From IMG/VR virus record IMGVR_UViG_3300048592_000321, positions 1 through 40,893 of that record: 40,893 nt of DNA; one strand, 5' to 3'. The position numbers were made by a program, and so were the translations under genes. The notes under the pieces were generated by a model. That model saw only the letters and a list, made by a program, of their open reading frames with translations, searched no databases and was not told the origin of the DNA. How positions within the stretch are numbered: the first letter of the stretch is position 1; each line of letters opens with the position of its first letter. This document shows, piece after piece, positions 10,495-33,769 of the stretch. Origin of the DNA: a virus.

Positions 10495-11778
10495 ATGGCT
10501 AAACAACTTGGCGCTCTTGTTTCTTTGTTGCAGGGGATTGATATGTCCCCTCTTCAGAATGCCCGTCAAAATAGTTTGGCGCAGGGCCAGCTTGCGCTTG
10601 CGCAGCGGGCGCAGGAAGCCGAACAGGTTTTGGAGACACGCCGGTTGGACCTTGCGAAGATGAACGCAGCGGACAACTTATCTTTAGACAAAGAACGTCT
10701 TGGCCTTGCTCGAACAGAGTTGACGTCGCGTGAGAAACAGGCGGAAGAGCAACGCACACTAGACAGGCAGCTTGCGGAAATGCAACAGGCAGGACGCGTT
10801 GACTTACAAGAGTTAATCGGCGCACAGGAATTGGCAGGCATCAACCTACAGGGGCAGTTAAGTCAAACGCTACAACAAGATCGCATGGCCTTTGAAGAAG
10901 CCGCGCAAGATCGGCTCCTCAAGGCACAAGGTGCAAACCTAGACAAAGAACTTAACTTGCGCCGGTCGCTTGCTGACAGGGAGTTTGAGCTTGCTAAGCG
11001 CAGGGGCGACGATGACGCCGCAATGGCCGTGTTGGAGCGGGAAGGCGCGGCATTGCGTAACAAGATGCTTAAACTTCAGGAAGAGAAAATACCCGGCGAC
11101 GTGGAGTATGAACAGAGCGCACGGGCAGTAGAGCTTGAACTTGCTCGGCTTTCGTTGCGCAAGAGTCGCTATGAGTTGGAAAAGATCAACCCGGACAGCC
11201 CCACGGTTAAAAAACTACAAGAACTTGAGTTGTCATTGGCAGAAGCCACTGTAGAGAAGACGCAACAGGAAGCGCGTCAAGAGAAGCAGATCGGGGACTT
11301 GCAGGAAGTGCAAGTGGCAAAGTTTAAGGAAAAGGGCAAGAGCGAAGACACGGAAGCAGGCTACCTTGACCCCAAGTTGGCGGCAGAAGGCAAGGTGCCG
11401 CGTGGTGCGGTCAAGTTCTTTACCGGGGAAGAATCGGATATTTACGCGGCAGACTTGCGCAGACAGGAAAAAGGCCAAGGTGGTGACGGTCTGGACGCAC
11501 GCATTGAGGCGTTCAAGGAACTGGAAGCCTTGGGTGACGCGCAAGATGAAGAGTCCGTTGCAATTCGCAAGGCGTTGCGTAGGTTCCTTAATGCCACAAA
11601 CACTAAGGGAGCCCGGAACATTGCTATTTCCTTCGGTTCCGTAGATAGGCAGTGGAAGCTTGCGGGCGCAAGACTCCCCGGAGCAGCTATTACGGAAACA
11701 GAGGAAGACGAAATAGATGACGCGCTGGAAGAATTGAGTCAGTATGATATTACCTTGGGTGAGGACTTGTTCGGCTAA
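10495..11778 (+). CDS. Putative internal virion protein, long coiled coil
   Basis: Most of the 427 residues (about 20-290) are charged, Gln/Leu/Glu/Arg-rich heptad-like helix, followed by a more globular acidic C-terminal part. Such helical proteins form the core or ejection apparatus in podoviruses, and the gene lies between two other candidates for that role. It follows the previous gene in the same frame after TAA-AGT, with a weak AGG ribosome site, and it overlaps the next gene at TAATG (11776-11780), which points to coupled translation. Confidence 0.7.
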   Translation: MAKQLGALVSLLQGIDMSPLQNARQNSLAQGQLALAQRAQEAEQVLETRRLDLAKMNAADNLSLDKERLGLARTELTSREKQAEEQRTLDRQLAEMQQAGRVDLQELIGAQELAGINLQGQLSQTLQQDRMAFEEAAQDRLLKAQGANLDKELNLRRSLADREFELAKRRGDDDAAMAVLEREGAALRNKMLKLQEEKIPGDVEYEQSARAVELELARLSLRKSRYELEKINPDSPTVKKLQELELSLAEATVEKTQQEARQEKQIGDLQEVQVAKFKEKGKSEDTEAGYLDPKLAAEGKVPRGAVKFFTGEESDIYAADLRRQEKGQGGDGLDARIEAFKELEALGDAQDEESVAIRKALRRFLNATNTKGARNIAISFGSVDRQWKLAGARLPGAAITETEEDEIDDALEELSQYDITLGEDLFG

Positions 11779-14700
11779 TGCCTATTGACTTTAACTCTCT
11801 CATTCAACAACGGCTCCCGAATCTGGTAAAGCGGGGGTCTTTGCCTATTGAGCAACAGTCATTCAGCAGGGGCGATAAATTCCAGCAGTTAATGAAGATG
11901 CTACAGCCCCCGGAAGCGGAAGCACCCGCGCCTTCCAGTCAGTTAGTAGCCGCACGTACCGCAGGACTTGAAGGGGCTCGACCGGATGAAGAATCCGGTT
12001 TCAACATATTTAACTCTCTTATATCCTTACTGGATATTGTGGGCAGGCCAGTGCGCGGTTTGTTGGGCGCGGGTATTTCTGCCGCAAAGGGGGACTTGGA
12101 TAAAGCGGGCAGTCGCTTACTTGACGCGGCACTTACTCCCTTTGACGCGCTTACGTTTAATATCTTTGACGTTGCCAAGGAAGAAACCAATACCACAGGC
12201 TCGGACCTGTTGAACGACCTTGGCTGGAAGTCAGGTACAACGGCAGAGGATGAAAGGCGTATTCGTATCGCAATGGCTGCCGGGGTGTCTCGCCGGGACG
12301 CAATCAGGCAGTTTGGTATTTACGGGGATCGGCGTTTGCCGGAATCGGTTGCACAGTCCTTTGAGAAGGTATTGCAGGCAGCCAAGGCAGCGGACCCTGA
12401 GCTAGACTTGAATCCAACAATGGATGATTTAAAGAACGCAGTGGATGCGCAAGACTTTGCAGGTTTTGCGGCGGAAGTCTTGTTGGACCCGCTTACGTAC
12501 TTGAGCATGGGAGTTACAAGCGCAGGCAAGGCAGCTAAGGCAGTGGGCGCGATTGCAGAGCAGGCCCCCCGGCTTGCCAAGGCGGTACGTGCAGCGGTTA
12601 GCCTAGACGATGCGCTTAAAGCAATCAAAGTATCCAAGGAAATCGGCGGTAAGCAGCAAGCACGCTTAACTAAGTTAATTACACGGGCATGGAAACACGC
12701 GCCTGAAGGTGAGAAGCCCAGCCTTTACTTGGCGGATAATTGGGCAAAGCAAGTCCGCGAAGGTCAGCGGGCGATGTTCACCACCATTGGTGGAAAGCCT
12801 CTTGTTAAAGGCGGGCCGGTTGCGGAAGTGTTGACCCATATTGGACAGACTAAAGTAGCAGAGGAAGTGCTGGGCAAGGCAACCGTAAGTGGTCGCTTGG
12901 GGCAGGCAATGCAGTTGCCCGGGGTAGAGCAAGTAGTAGGGGGCGTTAAAGGTTTGGTGCGCTTTGCGCGGGACAAGCTGGACACAAAGACGGGTGTTAA
13001 TTTCATTGACGAACTATTGGTATCTCGGGACGCGGAAGCACGAAAGGGTCTGACCGAAATCGGGCGCGTATTGAATTCTTTTGATAGTGAACTCCGACAA
13101 GTTGCTAAGGGGGATGCTGTAGTAGAAAAGAGTTTAAGGCAGCAAGTATCTAAGGCAGTAGAGTTGTCCAAGCAGACGGGCGGGGACTTTGCAGAGGCAA
13201 CGGACGCGGCGCGTGTAGCACTAGGCTTGTCTAACAACGCTGTAGGGGCCGACACTGTAGCCAAGATCGCGGCAGGTATTGTACGAATCAACAACACGAT
13301 GTTGGATAACGCGTCAAAGGTACCGACACGTATCCGGGAATTAAACGACGATACGATTCAATACCTGCACCATATGCTTACGCCAGAGGCAAAGAAGTTG
13401 TTTGCCGAACAAAAGAAAACAACTAAGTGGCTAGAGTCCACGGGCTTGGAGTTTAACGCACGTTCTCGTACTTTTAATGCGCGGTCTGAAAAGTCTTACG
13501 GAAAGACGCTTGACGAACTAAACAACGCATTTAGGGGCGAACACGGAATAGATTTGTTTAACCCGGACCCCATTGCAGCAACCCGGGAATCCGTGCGGCT
13601 TACGCAGCGAGCAGTTGCAAACGCAAAGTTTGCAGAGGCTTTCGTGCGTGAGTATGGCGCGACTACGGACGACACGTTGAAAGCGCTACTTGAGTCTGTA
13701 GACGGACTGCCGGAAAGACTACTCAACATGCGCAAGGCGGCGGAATACGACGCCGCTACAACCAAGGCAGCCGCCCGGGCCGCAAGGGAAATGGGTGCCG
13801 CCCATGGTGGCACGTTCAAGCCCAAGCCGGGCATACAGGGCTTGCTTGAGTACGTTACCAAAGAGCGCACGCCCAAGGCAGCGGCTTTTGCTGCTAAGAT
13901 GAACCCGAATAACCGGCAGCAGGTAAAGGAACTACGTAAGTTAATTAAAGAAGAAATACTTGCGCAGCGTCCGAAGGTGTCGGTCGCATTGGCAAAAACC
14001 AAGCCGACCGGCTTACCGGACCTGAACAAGATACCGGAAGGGCTGGACGTTTACGGCACGGCGGAATACTTTAAGAAGGTATTGAAGGATTCAGGCAAAG
14101 TAGAGCCCGGCACGGTTTCCGCTTTTGATATCTACAACCGCCTTGGCTTGAAATTGCCGAATACCCCGGAAGACCTCGCTAAGTTGGTTTCGGTGCGTAT
14201 GCCGGAAGAGGCAGCCGCGTTTGTAACCCGTGCGCTTAAAATCCAGAAAGACCCGGGCACGTTCATCCGCTATTACGATAAGATAACTAACTGGATGAAG
14301 TCTTGGGTTACAGTTCCTTTCTTGCAGTTCCACGGACGCAACTTCCTTGAGAACTCATTTAAGAACATTCTGGAAGGAAACACTAACCCAGCTAACTACA
14401 AGAATGCGGCAAAGTTGCTGTCCCAAGCTTCAGACCTTAATGCGGGCTCCCCGGATTGGGTGGGCAAGGCCGCAAACAAATTGAAGCAGGTTTTCCGCAG
14501 CATGGGGGAGCCCGACGTTGCTACGCTTAAGGACTTGAAGGAAGCAGGCGTGGGGGACAACTACGCCAAGATAGCCGATTGGCTGGTGGCGCACGGGGTA
14601 CTAGACAACCGTGTTACGTCCGAATTCGGGGAAGTGCTGCAAGATGGTGTTGAGGGAACCGGTCGTGCCGCCCGGCAGGTTCGCGGGCTAGGTGCTAAGG

Positions 14701-15914
14701 TCGTCAAGGAACTCGGCACACAAGGTGGTGTCCTTCGAGCAGGCTACGCGCTTGGCGCGGGTACTGAGAACCTTCACCGTACCAGCTTATTCTTGGACAG
14801 GATTCGGAAAGGCTACAGCGCGATTGAGGCAGCCGCAGAAGTAAAGCGGGTGTTCTTTGATTATCGCGCACTTACCAACTTTGAATCCACCTATGCCAAG
14901 CGGATGGGCTTCTTCTACTCTTTCTACCGCAACAATCTGCGGTATATCTTACAACAGGCTTTCACCAAGCCGGAAATGACAAAGCAGATTCTACGCCTGT
15001 TCCAGAACGACCCGGATAACCCGAAACAGAAATGGTTGTCGGACAAAGCCTCTTTCACAGCGGGCGCAAAGGAAGTGGCGCTGGGCTTTATCCCGCAACA
15101 GCAGTTCAGCATGTTTGGGTTTAACGGGGAAGATATCGTAGACAAGCTGCAAAACAAAGCGCAGCAGTTGGTGGGCATGGGCAATCCACTAATTACCACC
15201 CCGCTGGAAGTGGCCTTTAACAAAGACTTGTTCACGGGCGGGCAGTTGTTGCAGGAAACAACGTCGGTGGATTGGTCCTTTGCCCCGGAAGCAGTACAGG
15301 AGTTAATTGGATACCACCAGAACGAGAAGGGCGAACACAAGATTGGCAGGGTATGGAATCTGGTGTTTGGTGCGGTGCCCGCTATCGGTCGCTTCTCATC
15401 CACTGCGTTGCAGTTGACGCGGAAAGAGCGCACGTATTGGGAAAAACTTACCCAACTAGTGTCAGGTATTAAAATCCAAGACAGGGACTTGGAGAAGGAA
15501 GACTTGGCACTCATTGACCGAAATCTTTTGCGGGCAAAGCAGCAATTGCCCTTGGTTAAGCGGGACAACTACGGCAACTATCGAGTAAACGAAGAAACGC
15601 GGATGGGACGCGTAGCTTCTGCCATGTTGTTTCCGAGCAAAGCCAAGATGAAAGACTTAGCTTTGGAGCCGGTAATACTCTTTAAGTTAAAGCCTTACAT
15701 GACTTTTGACAAAGACGGTGAGGTGATCGTTACAGACCCGCTTAGGTTAAAGATGCACGAAGTAGCGGTTGAATACTTCCCGCGTGAACAGGCGTTCTTT
15801 GACGCCACGGAAACCCGCAAGGCCGTGGTCCGCAGTATTCAAGGCCGCGAAGTTAATCCGCTAGACGAAGAAGCACAGAAGGGCTTCAGCGCATTTTTGC
15901 AGGGAACACAGTAA
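11778..15914 (+). CDS. Very large internal virion / DNA ejection protein
   Basis: At 1378 residues this is the largest protein of the genome. The middle region contains a stretch typical of large podovirus ejection proteins: a Tyr/Trp-rich helix followed by FLQFHGRNFLENSFKN (about residues 850-875). Further on come TENLHRTSLFLDRIRKGYSA and VFFDYRALTNFE, another conserved pattern of such proteins. Much of the remainder is Ala/Lys-rich helix. Proteins of this kind are carried in the capsid and enter the cell with the DNA. No lysozyme or transglycosylase motif was visible. The last 29 bases overlap, tail to tail, a leftward RusA-like gene. Confidence 0.8.
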   Translation: MPIDFNSLIQQRLPNLVKRGSLPIEQQSFSRGDKFQQLMKMLQPPEAEAPAPSSQLVAARTAGLEGARPDEESGFNIFNSLISLLDIVGRPVRGLLGAGISAAKGDLDKAGSRLLDAALTPFDALTFNIFDVAKEETNTTGSDLLNDLGWKSGTTAEDERRIRIAMAAGVSRRDAIRQFGIYGDRRLPESVAQSFEKVLQAAKAADPELDLNPTMDDLKNAVDAQDFAGFAAEVLLDPLTYLSMGVTSAGKAAKAVGAIAEQAPRLAKAVRAAVSLDDALKAIKVSKEIGGKQQARLTKLITRAWKHAPEGEKPSLYLADNWAKQVREGQRAMFTTIGGKPLVKGGPVAEVLTHIGQTKVAEEVLGKATVSGRLGQAMQLPGVEQVVGGVKGLVRFARDKLDTKTGVNFIDELLVSRDAEARKGLTEIGRVLNSFDSELRQVAKGDAVVEKSLRQQVSKAVELSKQTGGDFAEATDAARVALGLSNNAVGADTVAKIAAGIVRINNTMLDNASKVPTRIRELNDDTIQYLHHMLTPEAKKLFAEQKKTTKWLESTGLEFNARSRTFNARSEKSYGKTLDELNNAFRGEHGIDLFNPDPIAATRESVRLTQRAVANAKFAEAFVREYGATTDDTLKALLESVDGLPERLLNMRKAAEYDAATTKAAARAAREMGAAHGGTFKPKPGIQGLLEYVTKERTPKAAAFAAKMNPNNRQQVKELRKLIKEEILAQRPKVSVALAKTKPTGLPDLNKIPEGLDVYGTAEYFKKVLKDSGKVEPGTVSAFDIYNRLGLKLPNTPEDLAKLVSVRMPEEAAAFVTRALKIQKDPGTFIRYYDKITNWMKSWVTVPFLQFHGRNFLENSFKNILEGNTNPANYKNAAKLLSQASDLNAGSPDWVGKAANKLKQVFRSMGEPDVATLKDLKEAGVGDNYAKIADWLVAHGVLDNRVTSEFGEVLQDGVEGTGRAARQVRGLGAKVVKELGTQGGVLRAGYALGAGTENLHRTSLFLDRIRKGYSAIEAAAEVKRVFFDYRALTNFESTYAKRMGFFYSFYRNNLRYILQQAFTKPEMTKQILRLFQNDPDNPKQKWLSDKASFTAGAKEVALGFIPQQQFSMFGFNGEDIVDKLQNKAQQLVGMGNPLITTPLEVAFNKDLFTGGQLLQETTSVDWSFAPEAVQELIGYHQNEKGEHKIGRVWNLVFGAVPAIGRFSSTALQLTRKERTYWEKLTQLVSGIKIQDRDLEKEDLALIDRNLLRAKQQLPLVKRDNYGNYRVNEETRMGRVASAMLFPSKAKMKDLALEPVILFKLKPYMTFDKDGEVIVTDPLRLKMHEVAVEYFPREQAFFDATETRKAVVRSIQGREVNPLDEEAQKGFSAFLQGTQ

Positions 15915-16260
15915 CCACAATATATTCCGGTCCGTCCGGTTTGTGGATTTTAATAAGGTCTTTCCAGTGAACAATTGCCGAATCATCCGTTTGCAAGCAC
16001 TTACACAACACGTCAATCAATGTGCTTGCGTAGTTCAAGTGGTCACGCCTGCGGCGTTTTCCATTACGAGCAATCCAGTTGCCATAGAATACCATGGACA
16101 CGGCAATGTCTTGCTCTTTTGAAATGCGCTTGCCCGCGCACTGTGCGGCCACTTGATTGTAGTACCCGGGCGTGACGGGTCCGTTTTCGCGCAGGGACTT
16201 GGGAAAAGGCACGGTAATACGTAAGATGTAGCCCGGTTGCTCTGTAAGGGGATAGACCAT
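15886..16260 (-). CDS. Antisense RusA-like Holliday-junction resolvase homologue (degenerate site)
   Basis: This 124-residue protein is encoded against the direction of all surrounding virion genes. The C-terminal half reads RRRRDHLNYASTLID (about residues 69-83), then TDDSAI (91-96) and a final strand, which fits RusA-type resolvases (Asp, Asn, then an Asp-Asp pair). Compared with the E. coli enzyme, the second Asp of the D-x-D-N motif is Leu and the usual active-site Lys three residues after Asn is Ser (79), so activity is doubtful. Its ATG (16258-16260) overlaps the ATG of the rightward adaptor gene (16259-16261) within CATG. No good ribosome site precedes it. The rightward strand has no open frame here, which supports the gene. 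Confidence 0.7.
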   Translation of the reverse strand: MVYPLTEQPGYILRITVPFPKSLRENGPVTPGYYNQVAAQCAGKRISKEQDIAVSMVFYGNWIARNGKRRRRDHLNYASTLIDVLCKCLQTDDSAIVHWKDLIKIHKPDGPEYIVVTVFPAKMR

Positions 16261-17197
16261 GACGCAAGCCCAATCTGCAACGCTGCAAAACTACCTAGAT
16301 TACGCCTTTCAGCGTAACGGGGACAGTGGTGCATTGGAAGACTTGGACGACAATTTTATGTCGGTCAAGAATGCACTGTTGAATTTGTCTGCCGACCCCA
16401 ACTGGCCGCACTACCGGGAAGAGTACCGCATTACAACTGTGCAGCCCTACTCCACCGGCACCGTGGACTTGACAGACGACAGCACCACTTTAACTGGCAA
16501 CGCAACGCTTTGGGCGACCGCAGGGATAGACAATACTTGGGTGCTGAAGGTGGACGGGGAAGATACCGAGTACCCTGTAGCCTCTGTGGGCAGCGAAACC
16601 GGGATTGTTTTAAAGTACCCGTATGTTGACAAGGGGCGCACGGCACTAGCTGCACAGAGTTATAAGCTAATCAAAAGGTTTTATGTATTGCCCAACAACT
16701 TCCGGGAGTTGATTGCAATTAAAAGGGCAACCGCAAGTATCTGTGAAGTACGGCTACTTTCACCAGACGCTTTGCGAGAGCGTGCGCAGTTGTCGGACAA
16801 CGGGGGCACGCCGGAATACTATACTGTCTTAAATCTGCCCGCAGACGGTAGAAAAGCAATTCGTTTCTTGCCCTACCCGGAAGGGGACTACGCTTTCCAG
16901 TATGACTTGGAGTATTTAAGGTGGCCTACTGCATTGAGCGCCGCCAGTCCTAGTGATGTGGTGGATTGGCCAGAAGAGCTACGGGGGCTGCTAGAAAAAG
17001 CAATTGAAGTAGAAATTGCCCGCAAGAATCGTGACCCCATTGCAGAGGATATTGCAATTAAAGCACTAAACCGTGCAATGCCTGTGTTTGAGCGTGGTTC
17101 GCTGGAAGATGGTGGTAATCATCGTCTCTATCCTTTTGGAATAAACGAAGATCAGCTAGAACTAGATCGTATCTTTGTTGACGGATCAGGTGCTTAA
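16259..17197 (+). CDS. Putative head-tail adaptor (neck) protein
   Basis: This 312-residue protein has an N-terminal helical segment, then a beta domain (about residues 60-150: TLTGNATLWA, followed by YPVASVGSETGIVL), a pattern common in phage neck and tail structural proteins. The segment FYVLPNNFRELIAIKRAT follows. Its place just before the nozzle genes fits the ring that joins portal and tail. The start follows AAGGGGAT. It ends in TAA immediately followed, in the same frame, by the ATG of the next gene. Confidence 0.6.
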   Translation: MTQAQSATLQNYLDYAFQRNGDSGALEDLDDNFMSVKNALLNLSADPNWPHYREEYRITTVQPYSTGTVDLTDDSTTLTGNATLWATAGIDNTWVLKVDGEDTEYPVASVGSETGIVLKYPYVDKGRTALAAQSYKLIKRFYVLPNNFRELIAIKRATASICEVRLLSPDALRERAQLSDNGGTPEYYTVLNLPADGRKAIRFLPYPEGDYAFQYDLEYLRWPTALSAASPSDVVDWPEELRGLLEKAIEVEIARKNRDPIAEDIAIKALNRAMPVFERGSLEDGGNHRLYPFGINEDQLELDRIFVDGSGA

Positions 17198-22222: not shown

Positions 22223-23995
22223 ATGATTTTAGTCGAGAAGGAAGGCAAGCTGCTTGCCGAAGTCTTGCCGCAGGCCGGGCAAGGAAACATCGTACAGGCC
22301 GTGCAGGCGTACCGGGGCTGGCTCTCTGCCGGTCTAGCACGCCGGGCGCTGGGTACAGCAGAGGTAGAGGTTACCGCAGGCGCAACTGCCGGGGCCACTA
22401 TCACGCTGCCCGCCAAGTCCGCTTTCATACCCGGGGACTGGTTCGGGCTAAACCATTCCGTTAACGGCAACCTAGCCTTCTGGTTTAAAGGTGTAGCGCT
22501 TACTGCATCGGGCGCGGCCTCTGTACCCGCAGTGGCAGACCTTGAAAGCGCGGGGGATGCCCTACTGTTCACGGCACCGGACGGCACAAGTCACGCTTTT
22601 ATCTTTGTTGCCGGGTCCGCAGAGTTGGGGCTTACGACAAGAATCAACAATATTGGTGGGTATGATGACATTGCCACGTCCATTGTTGTGGACGACGCGA
22701 GCGGGCTTTCCATCAACGATATCATTCAAGTAGCCGGTACGCCCGAATTCATTAAAATCACAAACATTGTAGGCAACACGCTAACAGTGACTCGCGGGGA
22801 GTACGGAACTACACCGGCTTCCATGTCTGATAACGCAGGTGTCTACATTATCCCGGCAGCGGTCTACGGTGCGGATACGCTCACTTTCGTAACTATGACC
22901 GTAGAGGTTACCGCCGCAGACGTCATGGCTACTTTCGAGTTGGCGTTTAATGCGGCTGCTATCGGGGTTACTTCAGATGACTCTGCTGCGGACGGTACAA
23001 CTATCCTGACCGTAGACACTGCGGGCGCGGACGGTAATGATTGGGTGTTTGCAGAGTACGGAGTAAATGCGGGCTTTACTGTCACTTCTCCCACTGGCGG
23101 CGTAGATGATTTAACGGCTGCCCCGCAGGCCGCGATTGAAGCGAGCGATTACCAGATTGCGGTAGACCTTACCGGGGATTCCACGGCAGAAGACGTGGAA
23201 GCCACCATCATTGCCGCAATTAACACAGCGGAAAACAGCTTGATTGCCAGCGAGCAAGATACATCCATTGACTTAAACCTGCCCACTGCGGAAAGCGGTG
23301 GCACAGGCGTAGTTAAGATGCTGACCGGCATCATTGACCAAGAGGCCGTTTGGACACTGACCGAATCGGTTACAAGCGGTACCTTTGCAATTGTGCAGGC
23401 GTCTACCTTGGATGTTAAAGTAAACGACGTGTCTATTTCTGGCGGGCCGCAGCTTTACACTACAGATGACCCGGGCACGGTTGTTGTTTTGATTGCGGCG
23501 ATTAACGCAGAGAAAGCAAACCACAACTACCATGCCTACGAAGGCACCAACTCAAGTCACCTTGCCTTGCGCCAGCGGCGCGGCGGGGCAATCACGGGCG
23601 TCCTGTCCGTCACCGTTACCGGCTCTGCGCAGGTAGAAGGCGGCGGCGCGGTTACGGACTTCTCCGGGGATACCGATACCTTAACCGAAATCGTTTCCGG
23701 CGCGGCTGCTAACCTGCCCACAGGTACATGGGAAATCCTTGCGGACTACTCGCTGCTGGACGACAACCCCGACGCTGTAATCATGCACGGTGTGTTTGAT
23801 TGCGACGTGGATATTGAGGCGTTCCGTGGACGACGGGTAGCCGCTACCGGGCGCACGTTCGCCACTGCGGACGGGGAGTTTGACCTTCCTTGTGCGGGGC
23901 TGGGCAAGACAGGCCCGGACGGTTACTTGATTAGCCTTGGCGTCTGGACAGTCGCCGGGAATGGTGTGCTGGAATACACCTTGTTCTACAACTAA
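22223..23995 (+). CDS. Large beta-rich tail/surface protein
   Basis: This 590-residue protein is Ala/Thr/Val/Gly/Asp-rich with almost no Cys, suggesting stacked beta-sandwich domains. The segments AAIGVTSDDSAADGTTI, TAGADGNDWVFAEYG and TSPTGGVDDLTAAP, and the repeated use of 'AAIN' helices (AAINTAEN, AAINAEKA), point to at least two related domains in the middle (about 250-330 and 390-470). The N-terminus (MILVEKEGKLLAEVLPQAGQ) is helical, as in attachment domains. It may be a tail spike, fibre or decoration protein. It is not assigned to a known family. AAAGGA precedes the ATG. Confidence 0.65.
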   Translation: MILVEKEGKLLAEVLPQAGQGNIVQAVQAYRGWLSAGLARRALGTAEVEVTAGATAGATITLPAKSAFIPGDWFGLNHSVNGNLAFWFKGVALTASGAASVPAVADLESAGDALLFTAPDGTSHAFIFVAGSAELGLTTRINNIGGYDDIATSIVVDDASGLSINDIIQVAGTPEFIKITNIVGNTLTVTRGEYGTTPASMSDNAGVYIIPAAVYGADTLTFVTMTVEVTAADVMATFELAFNAAAIGVTSDDSAADGTTILTVDTAGADGNDWVFAEYGVNAGFTVTSPTGGVDDLTAAPQAAIEASDYQIAVDLTGDSTAEDVEATIIAAINTAENSLIASEQDTSIDLNLPTAESGGTGVVKMLTGIIDQEAVWTLTESVTSGTFAIVQASTLDVKVNDVSISGGPQLYTTDDPGTVVVLIAAINAEKANHNYHAYEGTNSSHLALRQRRGGAITGVLSVTVTGSAQVEGGGAVTDFSGDTDTLTEIVSGAAANLPTGTWEILADYSLLDDNPDAVIMHGVFDCDVDIEAFRGRRVAATGRTFATADGEFDLPCAGLGKTGPDGYLISLGVWTVAGNGVLEYTLFYN

Positions 23996-25135: not shown

Positions 25136-25651
25136 TTAGACTGACGCGACAGGGCTTGCTTCCGGGGTCGGGCCGTTATCTACCTGAATTCCGGTAGGAT
25201 TCACCAGCCCGCTTACCGTGAGTTTGGCAGCCTTGGGCTTGCTGGCCTTCTTCGGGGCAGCCTTGGGCTTGCTGGCCTTGGGCTTGCTGGCCTTGGGCTT
25301 GCTGGCCTTCTTCGGGGCAGCCTTGGGCTTGCTGGCCTTCTTCGGGGCAGCCTTGGGCTTGCTGGCCTTTGCAGCAGGCAGCTTGCCACCGTGCTTCAGG
25401 ATCAGCTTGTCGCACTGCTCATTAAGGTACTTGGCACGGCTGCTGATACCCGCCTTCTTCAGTGCGTTGTCAAGCTTGGCAAGGTAGGCATTGTCTACCC
25501 AAAAGGCAATCAGCTTGTTCTTTGGCTTGTCGGACCACTTACCCTTTGCCTTTCCTTTGGACGGGCTCTTGCGGCTCGAACCCGCCACCTGCTTCCGCAA
25601 TCCCTTTGAACCGGATCGCTTTGAACTCCCCTTCTTTTTCGTGCTGCTCAT
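25136..25651 (-). CDS. Lysine-rich ribbon-helix-helix protein with H1-like tail
   Basis: The 171 residues divide in four: a basic Ser/Lys/Gly N-terminus (1-45); a region KLIAFWVDNAYLAKLDNALK (46-65) followed by AGISSRAKYLNEQCDKLI, which has the strand-helix-turn-helix pattern of ribbon-helix-helix DNA-binding domains; a low-complexity tail of SKPKA and APKKA repeats (about 93-143), like bacterial histone-H1-like proteins; and a C-terminal KLTVSGLVNPTGIQV (143-157) that resembles a tail-fibre motif. It probably binds and perhaps compacts DNA. It is the last gene of the leftward unit, has a strong ribosome site (CAGGGAGAGAAC), and overlaps the preceding resolvase gene by 113 bases. Confidence 0.75.
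   Translation of the reverse strand: MSSTKKKGSSKRSGSKGLRKQVAGSSRKSPSKGKAKGKWSDKPKNKLIAFWVDNAYLAKLDNALKKAGISSRAKYLNEQCDKLILKHGGKLPAAKASKPKAAPKKASKPKAAPKKASKPKASKPKASKPKAAPKKASKPKAAKLTVSGLVNPTGIQVDNGPTPEASPVASV
25228..25372. repeat. Minisatellite encoding SKPKA / APKKA units
   Basis: Copies of CCTTGGGCTTGCTGGCCTT, some interspersed with CTTCGGGGCAG, run in phase with the reading frame of the lysine-rich protein. The near-identical DNA of the units implies recent expansion by slippage or unequal recombination. Confidence 0.9.
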
Positions 25652-26144
25652 GTTCTCTCCCTGTTAAAACAAAAGTCCAGTGCGGTTGCTGCCCCTGTGG
25701 CAGATTCCGTTTGTGAATTAAAACGTCAAGGTGGAACCTATCATCCCTACCTATTGCTTGGCAAATGGAATCTTCAGAAACTTTAATGAAATTAGATACG
25801 TCACGCATCACCAAGTCGTTGTTGCTGTGGTACAAAGGAATCCACACAGCTATATCTAATTCGTAAAACTGGAACAGAGGCGCGTAAGCAGCGTATTGAG
25901 TTAACCAAGAAAACAAGGCTGCTTTAAATACTTTAACTGGAACGGTCGGCGCTCTGCGGCGGATGCGGTGCACGTCAAGAGTTAATTCATTTACGCTGGG
26001 TATCTCCCCAATCCAGTACCCGGCAAAGTGCCGGTCGTCGTAACCTAAACGGACCAACTTACCAGCATAGCGGCGTTTTAGTCGCTCTATCTGTTCAGGG
26101 GTTTTAGGCCCCTTTTTACGTTTACGTTTCCGGCGATTAACCAC
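25539..26144 (-). CDS. RusA-like Holliday-junction resolvase
   Basis: This 201-residue protein has a basic N-terminal extension (VVNRRKRKRKKG) and a C-terminal RusA-like domain: MRDVSNFIKVSED (about residues 113-125) and RDDRFH (133-138), giving Asp115, Asn118, Lys121 and the Asp-Asp pair expected of the fold and active site. RusA cuts four-way junctions during recombination and packaging of concatemers. The GTG at 26144 overlaps the DNA polymerase stop and is preceded by GGGAG, so translation is coupled; a TTG at 26168 is less likely. The last 113 bases overlap the next gene, so the final 30-odd residues are probably a dispensable tail. The genome carries a second, more degenerate homologue at 15886-16260. 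Confidence 0.8.
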   Translation of the reverse strand: MVNRRKRKRKKGPKTPEQIERLKRRYAGKLVRLGYDDRHFAGYWIGEIPSVNELTLDVHRIRRRAPTVPVKVFKAALFSWLTQYAAYAPLFQFYELDIAVWIPLYHSNNDLVMRDVSNFIKVSEDSICQAIGRDDRFHLDVLIHKRNLPQGQQPHWTFVLTGREHEQHEKEGEFKAIRFKGIAEAGGGFEPQEPVQRKGKG

Positions 26145-28098
26145 GTTGTTTGGGCTCCCAGCAAACAAGCTGCCCCCGGGCGTCTCGTACCTGCTTGGCT
26201 CCCTTGTACCAGCGGCGCATGAGTACGGGCTCTGCTTCCACCGGCACGTCTGGTAAGTAAGCCTTCATGCCTGTCACCATTAGCTGTGAGAGGCGTTCGG
26301 CGGCGTAGGGCGCGGCTTCCTCTGGTGCCTCTGCCAAGCACTCGTCGTGGATAAAAGCTACCAACCTTGAGCCGTAAAGGGCGCTGTTGCGGTCAAGGTA
26401 CATTTCCCGGCTAAGTAGCCAAAGGGCGTTTTTAGCCCCGTCCGCAGCAAGCCCTTGGAACATCGAGTTAGCCCCGGAAGTGTAATGCGCCTTGCCGCGA
26501 ACACGGCGACTACCCGGTTGCACTAGCGTAAATTCCCCGTTTGGGTTGTTGGTCACTTGGCTAAAATAATTGAAATAGTTTACCATTTCGGGGAAGGTCT
26601 GTAGCCACACTGCCCGCAGACTTTGCGCCGTTTCCAGTTTAATATCCATGCCGTAACTCTGCCGGGCGAACAGGCAAAGCTTCTCTGGCCCCATCCCGCC
26701 CGGGAATCCAAAGTTAGGTACCTTGGCTAACTGGCGCATATCCTTTACGCGTTCGTCGTCTTCTTCGTATGCTTGTTTAACTGTGGCGTAGTCTGCATTC
26801 AGCAGGCCAGCAGCCATGACTAGGTGAAGGTCATAGCCTTTAATCAGGTACTCGCGCATGGCACTGTAGCCAAACATGCTGTAGGTGACTTGCGCGAGCG
26901 CGGCTAGTTCGATAGTGGAGTAGTCGCAATCAATGTAGACGTAACCCGGGCGCGGGATAAAGCACTCGCGCACGCCGCCCTTCCGGGGAAGTTGCTGGAT
27001 ATTGCAGCCTTCTTTATCATTGCCCCTGCCCGTACCGTAAGAAGACGTGCGCCCGGTTGCTTTAAGCACGTCATAGTTAGGGTGGATTGTCCCTTGTGTT
27101 CCTTGCCGCAAAACCGGGCGCACGAATGTATCCAGAAGTTTTTGAACCGAGTTGTATTCTTCCAGCGAGACAAGCAGCGGGTCGCAGGATTCAATTAAAG
27201 TATCCCCGTCTGTCTTTACCTGCCCTTCAGGGCTTCTGCTTGACGGGGGCGTGCGGGGCACGTCCAGCAGCATATCTTCAAAAGCCTTTTGTACCCGCTC
27301 GCGGATGTTGTTCAGATTGCGCCCGCCCGTGGGCTTTACCAGCCCGGCGCTCTTGAGGCTTTCAATGTACTTGGTGGATTCGGTCAGTAGCTCAAGTTCC
27401 AGTTTATCCACGGCTTCTTTATCTGTGATTAAACCCCATGCTGTAATCAGCAGCAGTACCCATGCCGCCCGGCACTGCTCTACTTCGTTTGTTACCCGGC
27501 CCCCGGAAACAAACTGTATTCCGTCTTTAGTAGAGCGGTCGGCACACTGCGCACGCCAAATCGCGCCGGTTATGCTTACGTCGTTTAACAGGTATTGTTT
27601 AGCTTCTTCCGGCCATTGGTCGAAAGGTACCCCGTCAAGTTCCCTGTAGCGAAGCCGCCAAGAGTAAGGGTTTTTCTTGTCTTCAAAGATATCGACGTTA
27701 AGGTACTCTTTGGCAAGGTCGGCCAAGCTGAATTTCGGCGGGCCTTTAAAGTGGTAGGGGTCAAAGTCCAAGCGCCCTTCCGCACACTTAATCAGCTTCT
27801 CGCGCACGTCGGTTGAACTAACCAATCCGTTCTCTAGCGCGTACCAGATGTACTCTCCAAGGGAAGGGTCATGCCGCCATGAACAGGCCAGATCGTAGAA
27901 GACGTTATGCCCCACGATTAACCACTTGCGCGATATGGCTTCTCTAAGGTCTGCGCAGACTTCATCCATGGTGCGCAGCAGCGGGCCGACAAACTCTTTG
28001 CCGTTATACACCATGACTCCACCGGCAACCGGCTTGGGGATAATGTTGCCCAGCTCAATCAGGTGGGTTTCAAGGTCGAACACTAAATGAAGTGCCAT
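26137..28098 (-). CDS. polA-like: Family A DNA polymerase with 3'-5' exonuclease
   Basis: The replicative polymerase, 653 residues. The proofreading domain shows FDLET (7-11, catalytic Asp8 and Glu10), GHNVFYDLA (63-71) and YLLNDVS (169-175). The polymerase domain shows GRTSS (349-353), motif A DCDYSTIELAALAQ (390-403; Thr replaces the usual Gln after Ser), motif B RQLAKVPNFGFPGGMG (455-470) and motif C HDE (584-586). It has the layout of T7-type polymerases without a 5' nuclease. It starts at ATG 28098 after AGGATTAAAC and overlaps the resolvase gene at its 3' end. Confidence 0.97.
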   Translation of the reverse strand: MALHLVFDLETHLIELGNIIPKPVAGGVMVYNGKEFVGPLLRTMDEVCADLREAISRKWLIVGHNVFYDLACSWRHDPSLGEYIWYALENGLVSSTDVREKLIKCAEGRLDFDPYHFKGPPKFSLADLAKEYLNVDIFEDKKNPYSWRLRYRELDGVPFDQWPEEAKQYLLNDVSITGAIWRAQCADRSTKDGIQFVSGGRVTNEVEQCRAAWVLLLITAWGLITDKEAVDKLELELLTESTKYIESLKSAGLVKPTGGRNLNNIRERVQKAFEDMLLDVPRTPPSSRSPEGQVKTDGDTLIESCDPLLVSLEEYNSVQKLLDTFVRPVLRQGTQGTIHPNYDVLKATGRTSSYGTGRGNDKEGCNIQQLPRKGGVRECFIPRPGYVYIDCDYSTIELAALAQVTYSMFGYSAMREYLIKGYDLHLVMAAGLLNADYATVKQAYEEDDERVKDMRQLAKVPNFGFPGGMGPEKLCLFARQSYGMDIKLETAQSLRAVWLQTFPEMVNYFNYFSQVTNNPNGEFTLVQPGSRRVRGKAHYTSGANSMFQGLAADGAKNALWLLSREMYLDRNSALYGSRLVAFIHDECLAEAPEEAAPYAAERLSQLMVTGMKAYLPDVPVEAEPVLMRRWYKGAKQVRDARGQLVCWEPKQRG

Positions 28099-28100
28099 GT

Positions 28101-28427
28101 TTAATCCTCACTCCGTATGGGTCGAATATGCGGGCTGCCGCAACCGGCGCACACGCTTCCTTCCCTGTTGTCTTTGCAATCCAGTCCGCAGTTATCGCAG
28201 ACCTCTTTAATAATCCACCTTGCTTCTGCAATACCGTCGGCGCGAATTTCTACCCCGTATAAATACATCCGGTCTGAGTAGGTGAAAAGAATCTGTGTGG
28301 GATTGCACCATTCACCTATGTCATAATACAGTTCCATGAATTCTTCACGCGGCAGAATGCAGATAGTAGGAGCCGCGCCGGAATGCGCACGCTTGTGGTA
28401 AGCTTCTCGGAATTCACTGTACTTCAT
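28101..28427 (-). CDS. Small zinc-ribbon protein
   Basis: This 108-residue protein ends in CDNCGLDCKDNREGSVCAGC (about residues 77-96), two CxxC pairs typical of a zinc ribbon. The N-terminal two thirds are an unassigned alpha/beta region. It lies 2 bases before the polymerase start, so it may be a polymerase accessory factor or a DNA/RNA-binding regulator; this is inferred from position only. It uses the leader AGGACTAATTAAA shared in part by other early genes. Confidence 0.7.
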   Translation of the reverse strand: MKYSEFREAYHKRAHSGAAPTICILPREEFMELYYDIGEWCNPTQILFTYSDRMYLYGVEIRADGIAEARWIIKEVCDNCGLDCKDNREGSVCAGCGSPHIRPIRSED

Positions 28428-28432
28428 TTTAA

Positions 28433-28699
28433 TTAGTCCTGCGCGGCATAAGCGCCTTCAGCGCAATAACGAAATACGTCTACTACCCTACCAGATCGGC
28501 GGGCTACCCTGATTCGTGTTAAATAAAGAACATGCCTTCTGTACTTTTGTGTTGTACGTGCCGCCTCTTCGGGGATAGATTGAATATCTTTAAGTGGAAT
28601 AAGCTCATCCCAAGTAAAAACGTCCCGGGCATTCTCTTCTGAAATTCGGTAGCCGTGACACGGTTTGCCGGGGGCATGTACTTTAATTGATTTCAGCAT
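28433..28699 (-). CDS. Small unknown early protein
   Basis: This is a basic 88-residue protein with no recognisable motif. AAAGG lies 6 bases before the ATG. It sits between the single-strand-binding-like gene and the zinc-ribbon gene, downstream of the 28718-28751 hairpin, and is likely co-transcribed with the polymerase. Function unknown. Confidence 0.65.
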   Translation of the reverse strand: MLKSIKVHAPGKPCHGYRISEENARDVFTWDELIPLKDIQSIPEEAARTTQKYRRHVLYLTRIRVARRSGRVVDVFRYCAEGAYAAQD

Positions 28700-28717
28700 T
28701 CGTTGCCTTTAGGTGAG

Positions 28718-28751
28718 AGAGCCCGGGCAGTAATTAACCTGCCCGGGCTCT
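28718..28751. promoter_or_regulatory. 13-bp perfect intergenic hairpin with CCCGGGC core
   Basis: AGAGCCCGGGCAG-taattaac-CTGCCCGGGCTCT lies exactly between the stop of the single-strand-binding-like gene and the next start. It has no T-run, so it may protect or process the upstream mRNA end or attenuate transcription rather than fully terminate it. Confidence 0.75.
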
Positions 28752-28760
28752 GCTAGGTGA

Positions 28761-29498
28761 CTAGCTAAACAGGCCGGAACGGGGCGGCTGCGGCTGTGGC
28801 TGCGGCTGCGGCTGCGGGGCGAACGTCGGCTGCGGCTGCGGCTGCGGCTGCGGCTGCGGCTGCGGGGCGAACGTCGGCTGCGGCTGCGGCTGCGGCTGCG
28901 GCTGCGGCTGCGGGGCGAACGTCGGCTGCGGCTGCGGCTGCGGGGTGGTGATCGGCGCGGGGACAATTTCAGGGAAAGGCGTGCCCTTCCTGTGGAAATC
29001 GTAATTGGTGACAGGCGGCTTGTTCTTTGAGGAACGGTCCACGTCGGTAGCGGTCACGTAAACTGTGGTGCCGTTAACCGCGCCATGGCGTACGATCATT
29101 GCAAAGAACTCTCCCCACGTCATACCGTTTGCCTGCCCGTTGTAGGGGCTGTTCTGCTGGATGCAGTCGGGCTGCAACTGCGCACGCGGGAAGGAAGCCA
29201 AGTCCTGTTCGGTCGCGCAGGCAAGCATGAAATTCTTCAGCTTGTCTGCGGCCATTTTCTCGTACTGCTTGGTTTCAACGAAGATGCTGAAGGGCATCCC
29301 CTTTGCACAGTCGGGTCGGTCAGTACGGCTGGTTTTCTCGTAGGTGCCTTTGATGATGACAAACTCTTTGCCTACGTTCTTTGCCGTGCCGGGCTTGACC
29401 AATACCCCTTCCAGCTTAAGCGCGTGCCTGCCGGAAGGTACGAAAGACTTGCTGTTACTTTCGCCTGTGCTTGTATTCAGTTCGTCGAGCAATCCCAT
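28761..29498 (-). CDS. Putative single-stranded DNA-binding protein with Pro-Gln tail
   Basis: Of 245 residues, about 1-180 form a compact domain (KNVGKEFVIIKGTYEKTSRT, TVYVTATDVDRSSKN) like phage SSB-type proteins, and about 185-238 are a repeat tail of PQPQPQ blocks separated by TFA. The last residues, PRSGLFS, could be a partner-binding tip as in other SSBs. Its place between a helicase and the polymerase supports a role in replication. No conserved catalytic residues are seen. The start is MGLLDELN, similar to the internal start of the Cas4-like gene (MGLFDQ). The ribosome site (AAAGAAA) is weak. Confidence 0.65.
   Translation of the reverse strand: MGLLDELNTSTGESNSKSFVPSGRHALKLEGVLVKPGTAKNVGKEFVIIKGTYEKTSRTDRPDCAKGMPFSIFVETKQYEKMAADKLKNFMLACATEQDLASFPRAQLQPDCIQQNSPYNGQANGMTWGEFFAMIVRHGAVNGTTVYVTATDVDRSSKNKPPVTNYDFHRKGTPFPEIVPAPITTPQPQPQPTFAPQPQPQPQPQPQPTFAPQPQPQPQPQPQPTFAPQPQPQPQPQPPRSGLFS
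28787..28945. repeat. (GGCTGC)n-type repeat encoding (PQ)n
   Basis: Hexamer arrays of GGCTGC on the + strand are interrupted by GGGGCGAACGTC (TFAPQ). Similar arrays lie 4 kb away in the Cas4-like gene (32808-32855, 32925-32961), in the same orientation. Length variation by slippage is expected. Confidence 0.9.
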
Positions 29499-29577
29499 TT
29501 TGTTTTCTTTCTTTTAAGTTAGTTTGTTTTCGTTGCTTGCTGTTTGCTGGTTGGGTAAGTTTAATACCTGCCCCCGG

Positions 29578-31368
29578 CTAGGTCAACATGAAATCCCCTT
29601 TCATTTTAATTTTTGTTCCGTACAGAATTTTTTGCTTCTGTCCTGTTGTCTGTTCTAGGTACTGCGCTTCCTTCTGCGCTTCACTCCATTTACGCTTGTA
29701 GCGGTCGGTATGCAACAAGATATCGGCTGTCACTTCATCCGCCTCTTGCCCTTGCCGATGGGTTCTACCTAGCAACTGTTCCCACGCCGCGCCGGAAAGC
29801 ACGGGGGATATAATCAGATTGTTTTGATATTGTTGCAGGTTATGGCCTGTACCGTGGGCGTACTGTGATGCCATGGCATAAGCTGCTGTGGGCTTGCCGG
29901 AACCCGCTCCGTAGTACGGTATGCCGCCCGGCTGCTGGGCAAAGGCTTCTCCAAACGCATCATACGCGCACCACACGATTGAGCCCGGCCCGTTTTTAAT
30001 TAACCACTTGCGGCATAAGTGCAGCATGTAGTCGCTAACCCAAACAATCTTCTTCGGCGGTTCGGGCTTTAGCCTTTGCGTTTTCCAGTCTCTCCACGCC
30101 GCGCAAAGGTCCAAGTTGTTGTTGGCCAAGTTGACGTTGCGCGGCGTGCCCCTGCCTTCGATTGCTTCAACTATCAGCGCCGGGGAATCGTAGCCCGTGT
30201 GGGAGTTTAACCCTAGCTCTAGGGCAAGCAGCTTGCCCCACACTGACCGGGCGTTGACGTAATCCATATCAGGTATGCCGCCCGGCCAATCCAGCGTGTA
30301 GTAAAACCCGTGCATTAACTGATTGGTTTTCTCCGCAATAAACGTGGTGATGTAGTCTTGGTAGGCTTCCGGTCCCTGAGCATCCGTAGGCGGGAGCAAA
30401 CCGTAGAGGTGGGGAGCGTCATTGAGTTGGTGGATTTCAGCGTCAACGACAGCCGGAACTTCCACGGATTCCCATAGATTAAGATTGAGGGAAGAGGTAA
30501 CGGAAGGTTCTTTGGTAGTGACGATTCCGGGACAAGTATGCAGTCTTCGCCGGAATGCCTCTCTGTAATTAGCCGATATATCAGGGCTGTTAAATTGTCC
30601 AAATGCTTTAATGAAATCGGCCCCCCAATTAAAGGTTGCCAAAGGCTGTAGCTGAGAGAGATCGCCAAGCAGGGGGTCCATTCCGGCGTCAAGAACACCA
30701 GCCCATGCGGATAGCTCGCTTTCGTCGAAAGGAAGCGGCGAATTCTCACGCAAAGCGATTCTACTAATATGCTCGTAATCTTTAATGCTCCGTTTTGTTA
30801 GCGTACCGCTAGTGGCAACCAACATGGGCTGCGCGTTCGCGGGCGCAAGCTTCTCTTGTTCTTGATAGTAGCGGATAAACCGTTTGGTTCGGGCGGCGCT
30901 TAATTGGCTCAAGCAGTGTACTTCATCCGCCATAATTAAATCGGGCTTGTAGTCTTGCAGCAGTGTGGCAAACTCTGCCCGGGACAGATTGCCTTCGTAA
31001 CCAAAGACGCGAATGTTCTCACTGATATAGTAGTGTGCTTTAAACTTGGCGTGTTCTTCCCAAACAGTTTCAATGTTCTTTGAGCGCGTCAAGTAAATCG
31101 GGCGCTCTGCCCTTAGCACAGTAGGGGCAAGTAGATTGATTAGAGTCTTGCCCCAACCTACAGGAAGCATCCCAAGCAATCCCCGGGCGTCCTGCATGGT
31201 CGAGAGCGCGATACGTTGCAACTTGTTTAAAGGCAGCGGGCAGTCATCTGCGTTGCCGCAACGATAGAGCCAATCAAACACGGGCCAACCACCCCAATCG
31301 TTATCAGGCTTGGCAGGTATCGACAGGATACGTCGCATATCCCGGGACATATATTGGAAGTTTGTCAT
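29578..31368 (-). CDS. SNF2/SF2-type DNA helicase
   Basis: This 596-residue protein has Walker A PVGWGKT (69-75), DEVH (148-151, with MADEVHCL), motif III ATSGT (185-189) and motif VI GRTHRQGQ (534-541), which place it in helicase superfamily 2 near the SNF2 group, found in many phages beside polymerases. It likely remodels or unwinds DNA at forks or during recombination. No nuclease domain is seen. The ATG at 31368 is preceded by a structured intergenic region (31393-31464) without a strong ribosome site, so translation may be controlled by RNA folding. Confidence 0.9.
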   Translation of the reverse strand: MTNFQYMSRDMRRILSIPAKPDNDWGGWPVFDWLYRCGNADDCPLPLNKLQRIALSTMQDARGLLGMLPVGWGKTLINLLAPTVLRAERPIYLTRSKNIETVWEEHAKFKAHYYISENIRVFGYEGNLSRAEFATLLQDYKPDLIMADEVHCLSQLSAARTKRFIRYYQEQEKLAPANAQPMLVATSGTLTKRSIKDYEHISRIALRENSPLPFDESELSAWAGVLDAGMDPLLGDLSQLQPLATFNWGADFIKAFGQFNSPDISANYREAFRRRLHTCPGIVTTKEPSVTSSLNLNLWESVEVPAVVDAEIHQLNDAPHLYGLLPPTDAQGPEAYQDYITTFIAEKTNQLMHGFYYTLDWPGGIPDMDYVNARSVWGKLLALELGLNSHTGYDSPALIVEAIEGRGTPRNVNLANNNLDLCAAWRDWKTQRLKPEPPKKIVWVSDYMLHLCRKWLIKNGPGSIVWCAYDAFGEAFAQQPGGIPYYGAGSGKPTAAYAMASQYAHGTGHNLQQYQNNLIISPVLSGAAWEQLLGRTHRQGQEADEVTADILLHTDRYKRKWSEAQKEAQYLEQTTGQKQKILYGTKIKMKGDFMLT

Positions 31369-31392
31369 GTTTGTTTAAGTAGAGACAGAACG

Positions 31393-31464
31393 CTTGCCCG
31401 GGCGGGGTGTTGGCAAAGAACGGAACTTGGGAAACGCCTTTGCTACTCCCCGAACCCGGGCAAG
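31393..31464. ncRNA. Structured intergenic RNA element, three nested stems
   Basis: The 97-base gap upstream of the helicase gene contains three nested complementary segments: CTTGCCCGGG (31393-31402) with CCCGGGCAAG (31455-31464), GGGG (31404-31407) with CCCC (31448-31451), and GCAAAG (31413-31418) with CTTTGC (31438-31443). These fill the gap almost exactly. In the leftward transcript it would be a leader structure for the helicase mRNA. No known family was recognised. Confidence 0.5.
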
Positions 31465-31468
31465 ACTT

Positions 31469-31927
31469 CTAGCCCTTCTTACCAAACCGAACCTGCCAGT
31501 TAAGCGGGTCGCTGCTACGGTCACAGGCGTAGCCGCGATTCTGAAGCGCGTCCACCACGCCGGGCACGATCATCCACTTAGCAGGCATGGAGCCCGCTTC
31601 CAAGCCTTGCTTGCGCAAGTCGTGAATACGTTCGTCAATCTGCTTGAGCGTATTCTTGAGCAACGCCGCCCGCTCTCTGTGGATGTAGTTCTTCTGGTCG
31701 TCGGTCAAGGTGTCGGGGTGTCCTTCGGGGGTGGGGACGGTGCTTTTATCTTCACCTTCAACTTTCCCGGCTTGTTTTCCTTTACCTTTCGGAGCTTTAA
31801 CCTTGCTCGTAGGGGTTTCCGGTGTGGGTTTACCCCCACCATTCGCTGCCGTAGCTGCTTCCGGCTGGGATACCCCGGGTATTCCTTCCCCGCTTTCGGG
31901 TTCTTCGGTATTTCCATTCGGCACCAT
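31469..31927 (-). CDS. Unknown protein with disordered N-terminus
   Basis: This is a 152-residue protein from ATG 31927 (after AAAGGGAAGC); an upstream in-frame start at 31987 has no ribosome site. Residues 1-80 are low complexity (Pro, Gly, Glu, Thr, Lys); the last 70 residues are helical (AALLKNTLKQIDERIHDLRK) and end in a small domain with WQVRFGKKG. It lies between the nuclease and helicase genes. Function unknown; an accessory role in recombination is possible from context. Confidence 0.65.
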   Translation of the reverse strand: MVPNGNTEEPESGEGIPGVSQPEAATAANGGGKPTPETPTSKVKAPKGKGKQAGKVEGEDKSTVPTPEGHPDTLTDDQKNYIHRERAALLKNTLKQIDERIHDLRKQGLEAGSMPAKWMIVPGVVDALQNRGYACDRSSDPLNWQVRFGKKG

Positions 31928-31961
31928 TGCTTCCCTTTCTTTGTTGTAGCGAGTTTTAAAA

Positions 31962-32154
31962 CAACTGGTTGCAGGGCTAGAACCCAAAGGTTATCTTTTT
32001 GTCCCTTTGTTGGCTAGGTCAGTCCCCTACAGTCCGCAAGCGGTTTAAGGTTTCCCCTGTTTGCACAGTTCTAACTTTGCCTCAAACATCCGAGTATGCT
32101 GTCTCCGGTAACTCTACCCGGCGTGCCCGGATGCCGTGTCCCTGTAACCAGTTG
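31962..32154. other. Intergenic element bounded by 15-bp inverted repeats
   Basis: CAACTGGTTGCAGGG (31962-31976) and CCCTGTAACCAGTTG (32140-32154) are inverted copies with one mismatch, enclosing about 160 bases without a gene. Inside lie smaller stems such as CCGC-TT-GCGG and CCGGGTA/TACCGG. The element sits between the nuclease stop and the next leftward gene. It could be a structured RNA or a small inserted element; no tRNA cloverleaf was found. Confidence 0.45.
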
Positions 32155-32163
32155 AACTGGTTT
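32147..32163. terminator. Palindrome at the end of the Cas4-like gene
   Basis: AACCAGTTGAACTGGTT overlaps the stop codon of the nuclease gene. It is not GC-rich and lacks a T-run, so it is a weak terminator at best; its symmetry would also suit a protein-binding site. Confidence 0.3.
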
Positions 32164-33013
32164 AGCCTACGGACTCCACGATTTCAGTGGCGTACCGCTT
32201 GAGTACGTTAATCAGCTTGGCGAATGACGCGTCCCGCCCGTCAACATAGATGTTGCCGTATAGGCCAAGGTATTGACGGTCGCTCTTGTTTTCGGGGCTC
32301 ATTACCAGATTGAGTAGACCGGCTGCGGCGTCAACGCCCTTGCCGTACTCTACTTGCGTCCAGTAAGCGACCTTGTTTTCTGCTTCAATCTTCTTAAACA
32401 CGGGCTGAAGCAGTTCGGACAAGTCCTTTACTTCCTGCTTGGCGGGGCGGCAGTTGATAAACAACTTCAACTGTTCATTGCTGCCGTGCTGTTCCGGGGC
32501 AACCGTTGCCGGGGTCGGGGCAGGTGCGGGTGCGGGTGTCGGGGCCGGTGCGGGCTGTGCCTGCTGTACGGGCTGCGGGGCCGGGGCCGGGGCCGGGGCC
32601 GGGGCCGGGGCCGGGGCCGGGGCCGATGCGCCCAACACGGGCAGCACGTAGTTTTCCAGTGGCGCTTCCTGTAGCAGATACGACAGCTTGCCATAGTCGG
32701 CTGGGCTGAGTTTGGTCGCGTCACCATTTACGGAATCCAACAGGTTGTCCCGCTCAATTTCCACTTTGGTTCGGCGCTTGCGCTTGCGCTTGGGCTTCTC
32801 TGCTTCCTGCTGCGGCTGCGGCTGCGGCTGCGGCTGCGGCTGCGGCTGCGGCTGTTGCAGGTTCATGGACAGCAGCGGACTTTCCGCAGACGGTGCGTTG
32901 TACGCTGCGGGCGGGTTGATTGCCGCAGGCTGCGGCTGCGGCTGCGGCTGCGGCTGCGGCTGTACCGCCGCGTTAATTGCGGGCTGGTTGCTGGGTTGGT
33001 CGAAAAGTCCCAT
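32162..33013 (-). CDS. Possible in-frame internal product of the Cas4-like gene
   Basis: Inside the nuclease gene, AAAAGAGGTAGATTATATG places AGAGGT 8 bases before an in-frame ATG at 33013, a better ribosome site than the gene's own start has. The product (283 residues, beginning [11 protein letters not shown]) would consist of the (QP)n and (PA)n linkers, the basic segment and the C-terminal domain, without the nuclease. The boundary falls right after the last Cys of the nuclease domain, where a separate gene would begin. Its start resembles that of the single-strand-binding-like protein (MGLLDEL). Confidence 0.5.
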
Positions 33014-33769
33014 ATAATCTACCTCTTTTGTGTTGTTTGCCGGGCAACCCGGACAGATGGATTTAAACGGACAACCACCATAGTTGCCGCAAGAATCGTA
33101 GTTAGCTTGTACTTCGTTAACGTCGGTCTGTAAACTATCGGCCTTCATGCCGTAAGTATCTGCTTTAACTGTCAGCAGTTCTTGGTAAAACAATTCGTTT
33201 CCACGCTGCATGGGCACGCTAACCACCCGGCTTTGCGTGCTTCGATCATATGATTTAAGTGTAAAGAGCAAGCTGAAATCCAGATACTTGGCTTGCGGCT
33301 CCAACATCATAACCATGTACGTGTAAATTAACCGTTGCGGGTCCAAGCGCAACCGTTCGTAATCGGGTACATACGAGAAGTCCTTTGTGGTTTTGTAGTC
33401 GTAGATGCTTACTAGTTCTGGATTCTTCCTGTCTTGCGCGAGAAGGTCTATCTTGCCGGTCAAGGCAACCGGCCAGCCATCCCCTGCCGGGAAGGTCACG
33501 TTGGCTTCCGTGACTAACTTGTGCGTGTCATGCTTGGGGATATGTTGAAGCAGTTCAATTGCTTCGGGCATCATTTGGTGTATTTCCAATTGCCCTTTAA
33601 CATAGCTTTCCAATTGCGCATGGACCTTTGTGCCAAAGTCCATGGCCGCAGACGTGGGTTGCCCCAAGCCTTTAATCTTGTCGAACCACCACTTGCGCGG
33701 GCAGTCCCGGTAAGTCTTAATTTGACTCGCTGACACGGTGTGAAACGGTTTTAGTTCTGTGCCTTCCAT
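32162..33769 (-). CDS. Cas4/RecB-like PD-(D/E)xK nuclease with repeat linkers and C-terminal domain
   Basis: This 535-residue, three-part protein starts with a nuclease domain (1-245): CPRKWWF (23-29), GTKVH (46-50), LTGKIDLL (103-110, Asp108), DYKT (124-127, catalytic Asp and Lys) and QRLIY (145-149). With [16 protein letters not shown] (227-242), it has the Cys pattern of the iron-sulphur exonucleases Cas4 and AddB. Next comes a disordered region with two (QP)n arrays, a basic [11 protein letters not shown] segment and a (PA)n array. The last domain (from about 420, [20 protein letters not shown] onward) is unrecognised. Nearby polymerase, SSB and resolvase genes suggest DNA-end processing. 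A strong internal ribosome site before Met253 (33013) may give a second product. Confidence 0.85.
32577..32625. repeat. (GGGGCC)n repeat encoding (PA)n
   Basis: Uninterrupted GGGGCC hexamers lie in the linker of the Cas4-like protein. Confidence 0.9.
32808..32961. repeat. Two (GGCTGC)n arrays encoding (PQ)n
   Basis: The arrays are at 32808-32855 and 32925-32961, separated by coding sequence for LQQ and Ala/Pro/Ser residues. They match the array in the single-strand-binding-like gene. Confidence 0.9.

Follow-up and report, generated by a model that had tools for sequence, protein, structure and literature searches.

An antisense RusA-like gene with two active-site replacements within the virion operon of a phage

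Introduction

RusA of E. coli (1Q8R, 2H8C; Pfam family PF05866) is an enzyme of 120 residues that cuts DNA junctions; it is built around an RRRRD-x2-N-x6-D-...-DD core, and its known catalytic residues are D70, D72, D91 and K76. That the family can lose catalysis through a single active-site change follows from the RusA-D70N variant, which serves as a RusA without nuclease activity (PMC4909299). In phage LeBron, two distinct junction enzymes have been predicted side by side (PMC3029335); our literature search returned no report of a phage with two RusA genes or of a RusA encoded antisense. A further point of comparison is the phage moron, as defined in PMC3029335. Here we analyse a gene from a 40,893-nucleotide stretch of viral DNA (IMG/VR record IMGVR_UViG_3300048592_000321; "the window" denotes this entire stretch), in which the original prediction, made from the sequence alone, had recognised an antisense, active-site-degenerate RusA homologue inside the virion operon that might act as an inhibitor, bind particular DNA structures or be in decay.

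Results

The open reading frame at 15886-16260 lies on the minus strand, starts with ATG and comprises 124 codons. At its 3' end it overlaps, tail to tail, the 3' end of a 1378-residue virion gene (11778-15914, plus strand) by 29 bases (15886-15914), and at its 5' end it has a CATG (16258-16261) in common with the divergent start of a 312-residue virion gene (16259-17197, plus strand), exactly as had been predicted. The names given to these neighbours, ejection protein and adaptor, are positional: the former is without a family match, and the latter has only a partial match to a tail-protein PHROG. With the exception of the antisense frame, the virion genes that extend from TerL (1952) to a gene with its end at 23995 are all on the plus strand and separated by 0-109 nt; the 344-nt gap between these two neighbours is the only one in this range that exceeds 110 nt. 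Within this gap, the antisense frame is the only one of the six that is free of stops, and any open frame survives in just 2.2% of mononucleotide shuffles. Its codon log-odds score, 0.14 per codon compared to a mean of 0.18 for 36 genes, is far above the scores of the five remaining frames, which range from -0.10 to -0.31. It surpasses each of the roughly 60 shadow frames with 100 or more codons in the window except 25136-25651, which is itself a probable gene. Given the gap frames, the shuffles and the codon statistics, the frame is a coding gene, or was one until very recently.

The encoded protein is related to RusA. In Pfam its only family match is PF05866, at 15.6 bits (E 0.026) and thus below the gathering cut-off of 22.8, for which reason we file it as RusA-superfamily-like and not as a PF05866 member. 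A profile of 15 phage RusA proteins, widened to 24 sequences by adding E. coli RusA and proteins from more loci, ranked it first among the 543 frames of the window (17.8 bits, E 9e-5), with an E-value of 0.0022 over the 13,419 frames of the window and all loci combined; its score was not reached once in 20,000 shuffles of the protein sequence. The spaced core D-x2-N-x6-D-x7-DD was found in only 10 of the same 13,419 frames, all RusA-like, namely RusA proteins (some in duplicate loci), the antisense frame and a second copy in the window. With phmmer, the protein matched an annotated phage rusA (E 2e-4), and it also has a weak match to PHROG 11573, a group to which two clear RusA proteins are similar as well. 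By eye, all secondary-structure segments of the domain are recognisable, from the N-terminal ILRITVPFP, which resembles SITLPWPP of E. coli RusA, to the C-terminal strand, indicating that the protein is not truncated. AlphaFold models built from the sequence alone or with a nine-sequence alignment were of too low confidence (pLDDT 49 and 51) to speak for or against the dimeric alpha/beta fold of RusA; Foldseek returned no RusA from the PDB, which at that confidence we regard as uninformative and not as negative. Matches of the protein to designed PPR proteins, obtained by phmmer in the PDB, were discarded as repeat artefacts summed over domains. The predicted homology is thus borne out by the wide profile, the shuffle control and the pattern test, with weak Pfam evidence.

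The core motif, RDHLNYASTLIDVLCKCLQTDD, spans codons 72-93 (15982-16047, minus strand) and fits the pattern D..N......D.{7,11}DD. Residues D70, N73, D80, D90 and D91 of E. coli RusA correspond to D73, N76, D83, D92 and D93 of the antisense protein, whereas D72 is replaced by L75, K76 by S79 and Q93 by A95; the loss of the second Asp and of the active-site Lys had therefore been assigned to the right residues. Of the set D70/D72/D91, the first and last are retained and the middle one is a Leu, leaving the set incomplete, and Ser79 stands in place of the Lys. Among the 24 reference RusAs, D70, N73, D80 and D91 are invariant and K76 is present in 23, the sole exception being the protein encoded at locus L041. 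D72, however, is Ser, Ala or Leu in three of the 24, most of those without it still having K76, so that loss of D72 is not diagnostic by itself while loss of K76 is rare. The description of the site as degenerate therefore holds for the two losses taken together, but not for the missing D72 alone, since other RusA-like proteins of phages also carry Ser, Ala or Leu there.

The second copy, RusA-2 (25539-26168, minus strand; motif DVSNFIKVSEDSICQAIGRDD), is located directly downstream of DNA polymerase A. It had been considered the better conserved of the two, which is correct for the retained K76, but not for D72, which is a Ser, nor for its profile score of 8.8 bits compared to 17.8 for the antisense copy. 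The 3' end of its gene is overlapped by about 113 nt by the gene at 25136-25651 (minus strand), which encodes a Lys/Ala/Pro-rich protein with ASKPKAAPKK repeats. Long PQPQPQ and PAPAPA tracts are found in two further proteins of the replication module, encoded at 28761-29498 and 32162-33769 (both minus strand), one of them in an SSB-like position and one nuclease-like with clustered cysteines. The DNA polymerase, helicase and nuclease encoded across 26137-33769 (minus strand) find their matches, in unchanged order, in the Manatee Spring myovirus MW202816. The matches of TerL, by contrast, are to podoviruses, pointing to a mosaic genome.

The antisense gene has a poor Shine-Dalgarno sequence (-2.4 kcal/mol, where many genes of this phage reach about -5 or stronger), while that of the adaptor gene, AAGGGG (16246-16251), which lies inside the antisense coding sequence, is good (-8.3 kcal/mol). 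A weak candidate sigma-70-like promoter, TCAACA-18-TAAAAT (16353-16382, minus strand), is located 93 nt upstream of the antisense start; it is a consensus match only (9 of 12 positions), one of three such weak matches on the minus strand where 0.7 were expected. A search for a terminator of the antisense gene gave no convincing candidate, and Rfam no match in 15700-16700. It is from its coding statistics that we take the gene to be probably expressed.

Close relatives of the antisense gene, the adaptor, the ejection protein and the portal were not found in IMG/VR; phage and plasmid records yielded insignificant matches only, bacterial and archaeal genomes no relatives, and a defence library no match to the antisense protein. 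When we searched 80 loci with TerL relatives, mostly of at most 30% identity, for the adaptor, the one partial match (G013) was in an unrelated phage and not syntenic, and a search of the same loci for PF05866 revealed RusAs at other positions only. In the collections searched we found neither an occupied nor an empty version of this site between the same flanking genes. Near matches to the virion genes, in DNA or protein, were not found except for family-level matches of TerL, portal and capsid, and this small tailed phage is thus isolated.

The best pairwise match of the antisense protein is a RusA-like protein of the Manatee Spring podovirus MW202524 (phmmer E 2e-4), with the motif DVANMHKALIDTICEKQGWDD, in which D72 is also replaced; the similarity to PHROG 11573 is common to both. 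Unlike the antisense protein, it has kept K76 and Q93, and its gene sits in a block of non-virion genes. The double active-site change recurs in the only PF05866 match in IMG/VR record G019 (L041/L093; L041:5003-5773, plus strand), which has the motif DALNVIDAVSDAIKGVLGVDD, with D-x-L-N and without K76. It differs in having Asp instead of Ser at position 76, a zinc-finger-like tail and a location on the same strand as TerL. This protein, for which phage records contained no relative of its type, is the only other double active-site change seen in our analysis, and the combination is therefore not unique to the window. In a different RusA variant, encoded at L013:4560-4913 and L075:5634-6023, the stretch from N73 to the Lys is longer by three residues (RDLDNIAFSKKFILDAM).

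Discussion

In length (124 residues), order of elements and core motif, the antisense protein resembles E. coli RusA, from which it is set apart by the three replacements in and around the active site, by the sub-threshold Pfam score and by the orientation of its gene relative to the virion genes. What is unusual about this phage is the antisense placement and the presence, beside RusA-2, of another RusA that has lost Lys76. Our preferred reading, which we hold tentatively, is that the gene is intact, probably expressed and moron-like, and that its RusA-fold product most likely binds branched DNA while cutting it poorly or not at all. Like a moron, it stands alone between two genes that would be neighbours without it; in contrast to one, its promoter and terminator are weakly matched, and it is from the gap alone that we infer an insertion. 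With the equivalents of Asp72 and Lys76 gone and the rest of the domain kept, the small protein, which would probably dimerise, likely still recognises branched DNA with little or no cleavage. Transcription opposite to the late genes would allow it to act apart from RusA-2, and it may shield junctions or compete for them, for example against RusA-2. A more specific form of this proposal, in which a nuclease-dead paralogue has been selected, is timed unlike RusA-2 and binds branched phage DNA, regulating or blocking junction resolution late in infection, we consider rather doubtful.

Against the preferred reading of a non-cutting protein speaks the protein at L041, which combines D-x-L-N with an Asp in place of K76: with the same two losses, the double change may represent a functional variant. 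The poor Shine-Dalgarno sequence, the weak promoter matches and the fact that our searches gave no homologue of the locus in which selection could be traced also count against this reading. In view of L041, the antisense protein could be an active nuclease for branched DNA that uses a variant active site, with His74 possibly taking part in metal binding, in which case the phage would have two working RusA-type enzymes of different timing or substrates. Such a variant could draw on the retained equivalents of D70, D80, D90 and D91 and on the replacement of D72 by Ser, Ala or Leu in RusA-2, L119, L003 and L041. Since all but one of the reference RusAs nonetheless keep K76, most of those lacking D72 included, and since both replaced positions belong to the known catalytic residues of the E. 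coli enzyme, we regard this as rather unlikely.

One can also ask whether the gene, recently acquired or duplicated, is simply decaying, its frame still open while selection has gone and the active site drifts. The loss of two conserved active-site positions and of Q93, the lack of a good ribosome-binding site, the antisense position with its weak promoter matches and the presence of another RusA with K76 would all fit this course. Yet the frame is full-length and its codon usage typical of the phage, all structural segments and five conserved polar residues persist, and small phage genomes usually shed useless DNA fast, making decay quite unlikely.

It is highly improbable that the antisense RNA is what serves the phage, the protein being secondary. 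In that case late expression would be damped by minus-strand transcripts running across the start and ribosome-binding site of the adaptor gene and the 3' end of the gene before it. The CATG common to both starts does mean that a transcript from upstream would cover the adaptor Shine-Dalgarno sequence, but an RNA role requires neither a RusA signal at the protein level nor the observed codon usage, and no Rfam match was found in the region. A chance open frame with an accidental resemblance to RusA is scarcely credible, for although the Pfam score is below its cut-off and the AlphaFold models are uninformative, it is contradicted by the geometry of the gap, the codon statistics, the rank in the profile search, the shuffle control and the specificity of the pattern.

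The comparison with the reference proteins indicates that environmental phages adhere less strictly to the active-site signature of RusA, D-x-D-N...K, than one would expect from the E. coli enzyme. If the antisense gene is kept by selection, it would provide a natural junction-binding RusA without resolvase activity, beside the separate RusA-2 in one phage, and an instance of a DNA-processing gene that runs antisense within a virion operon.
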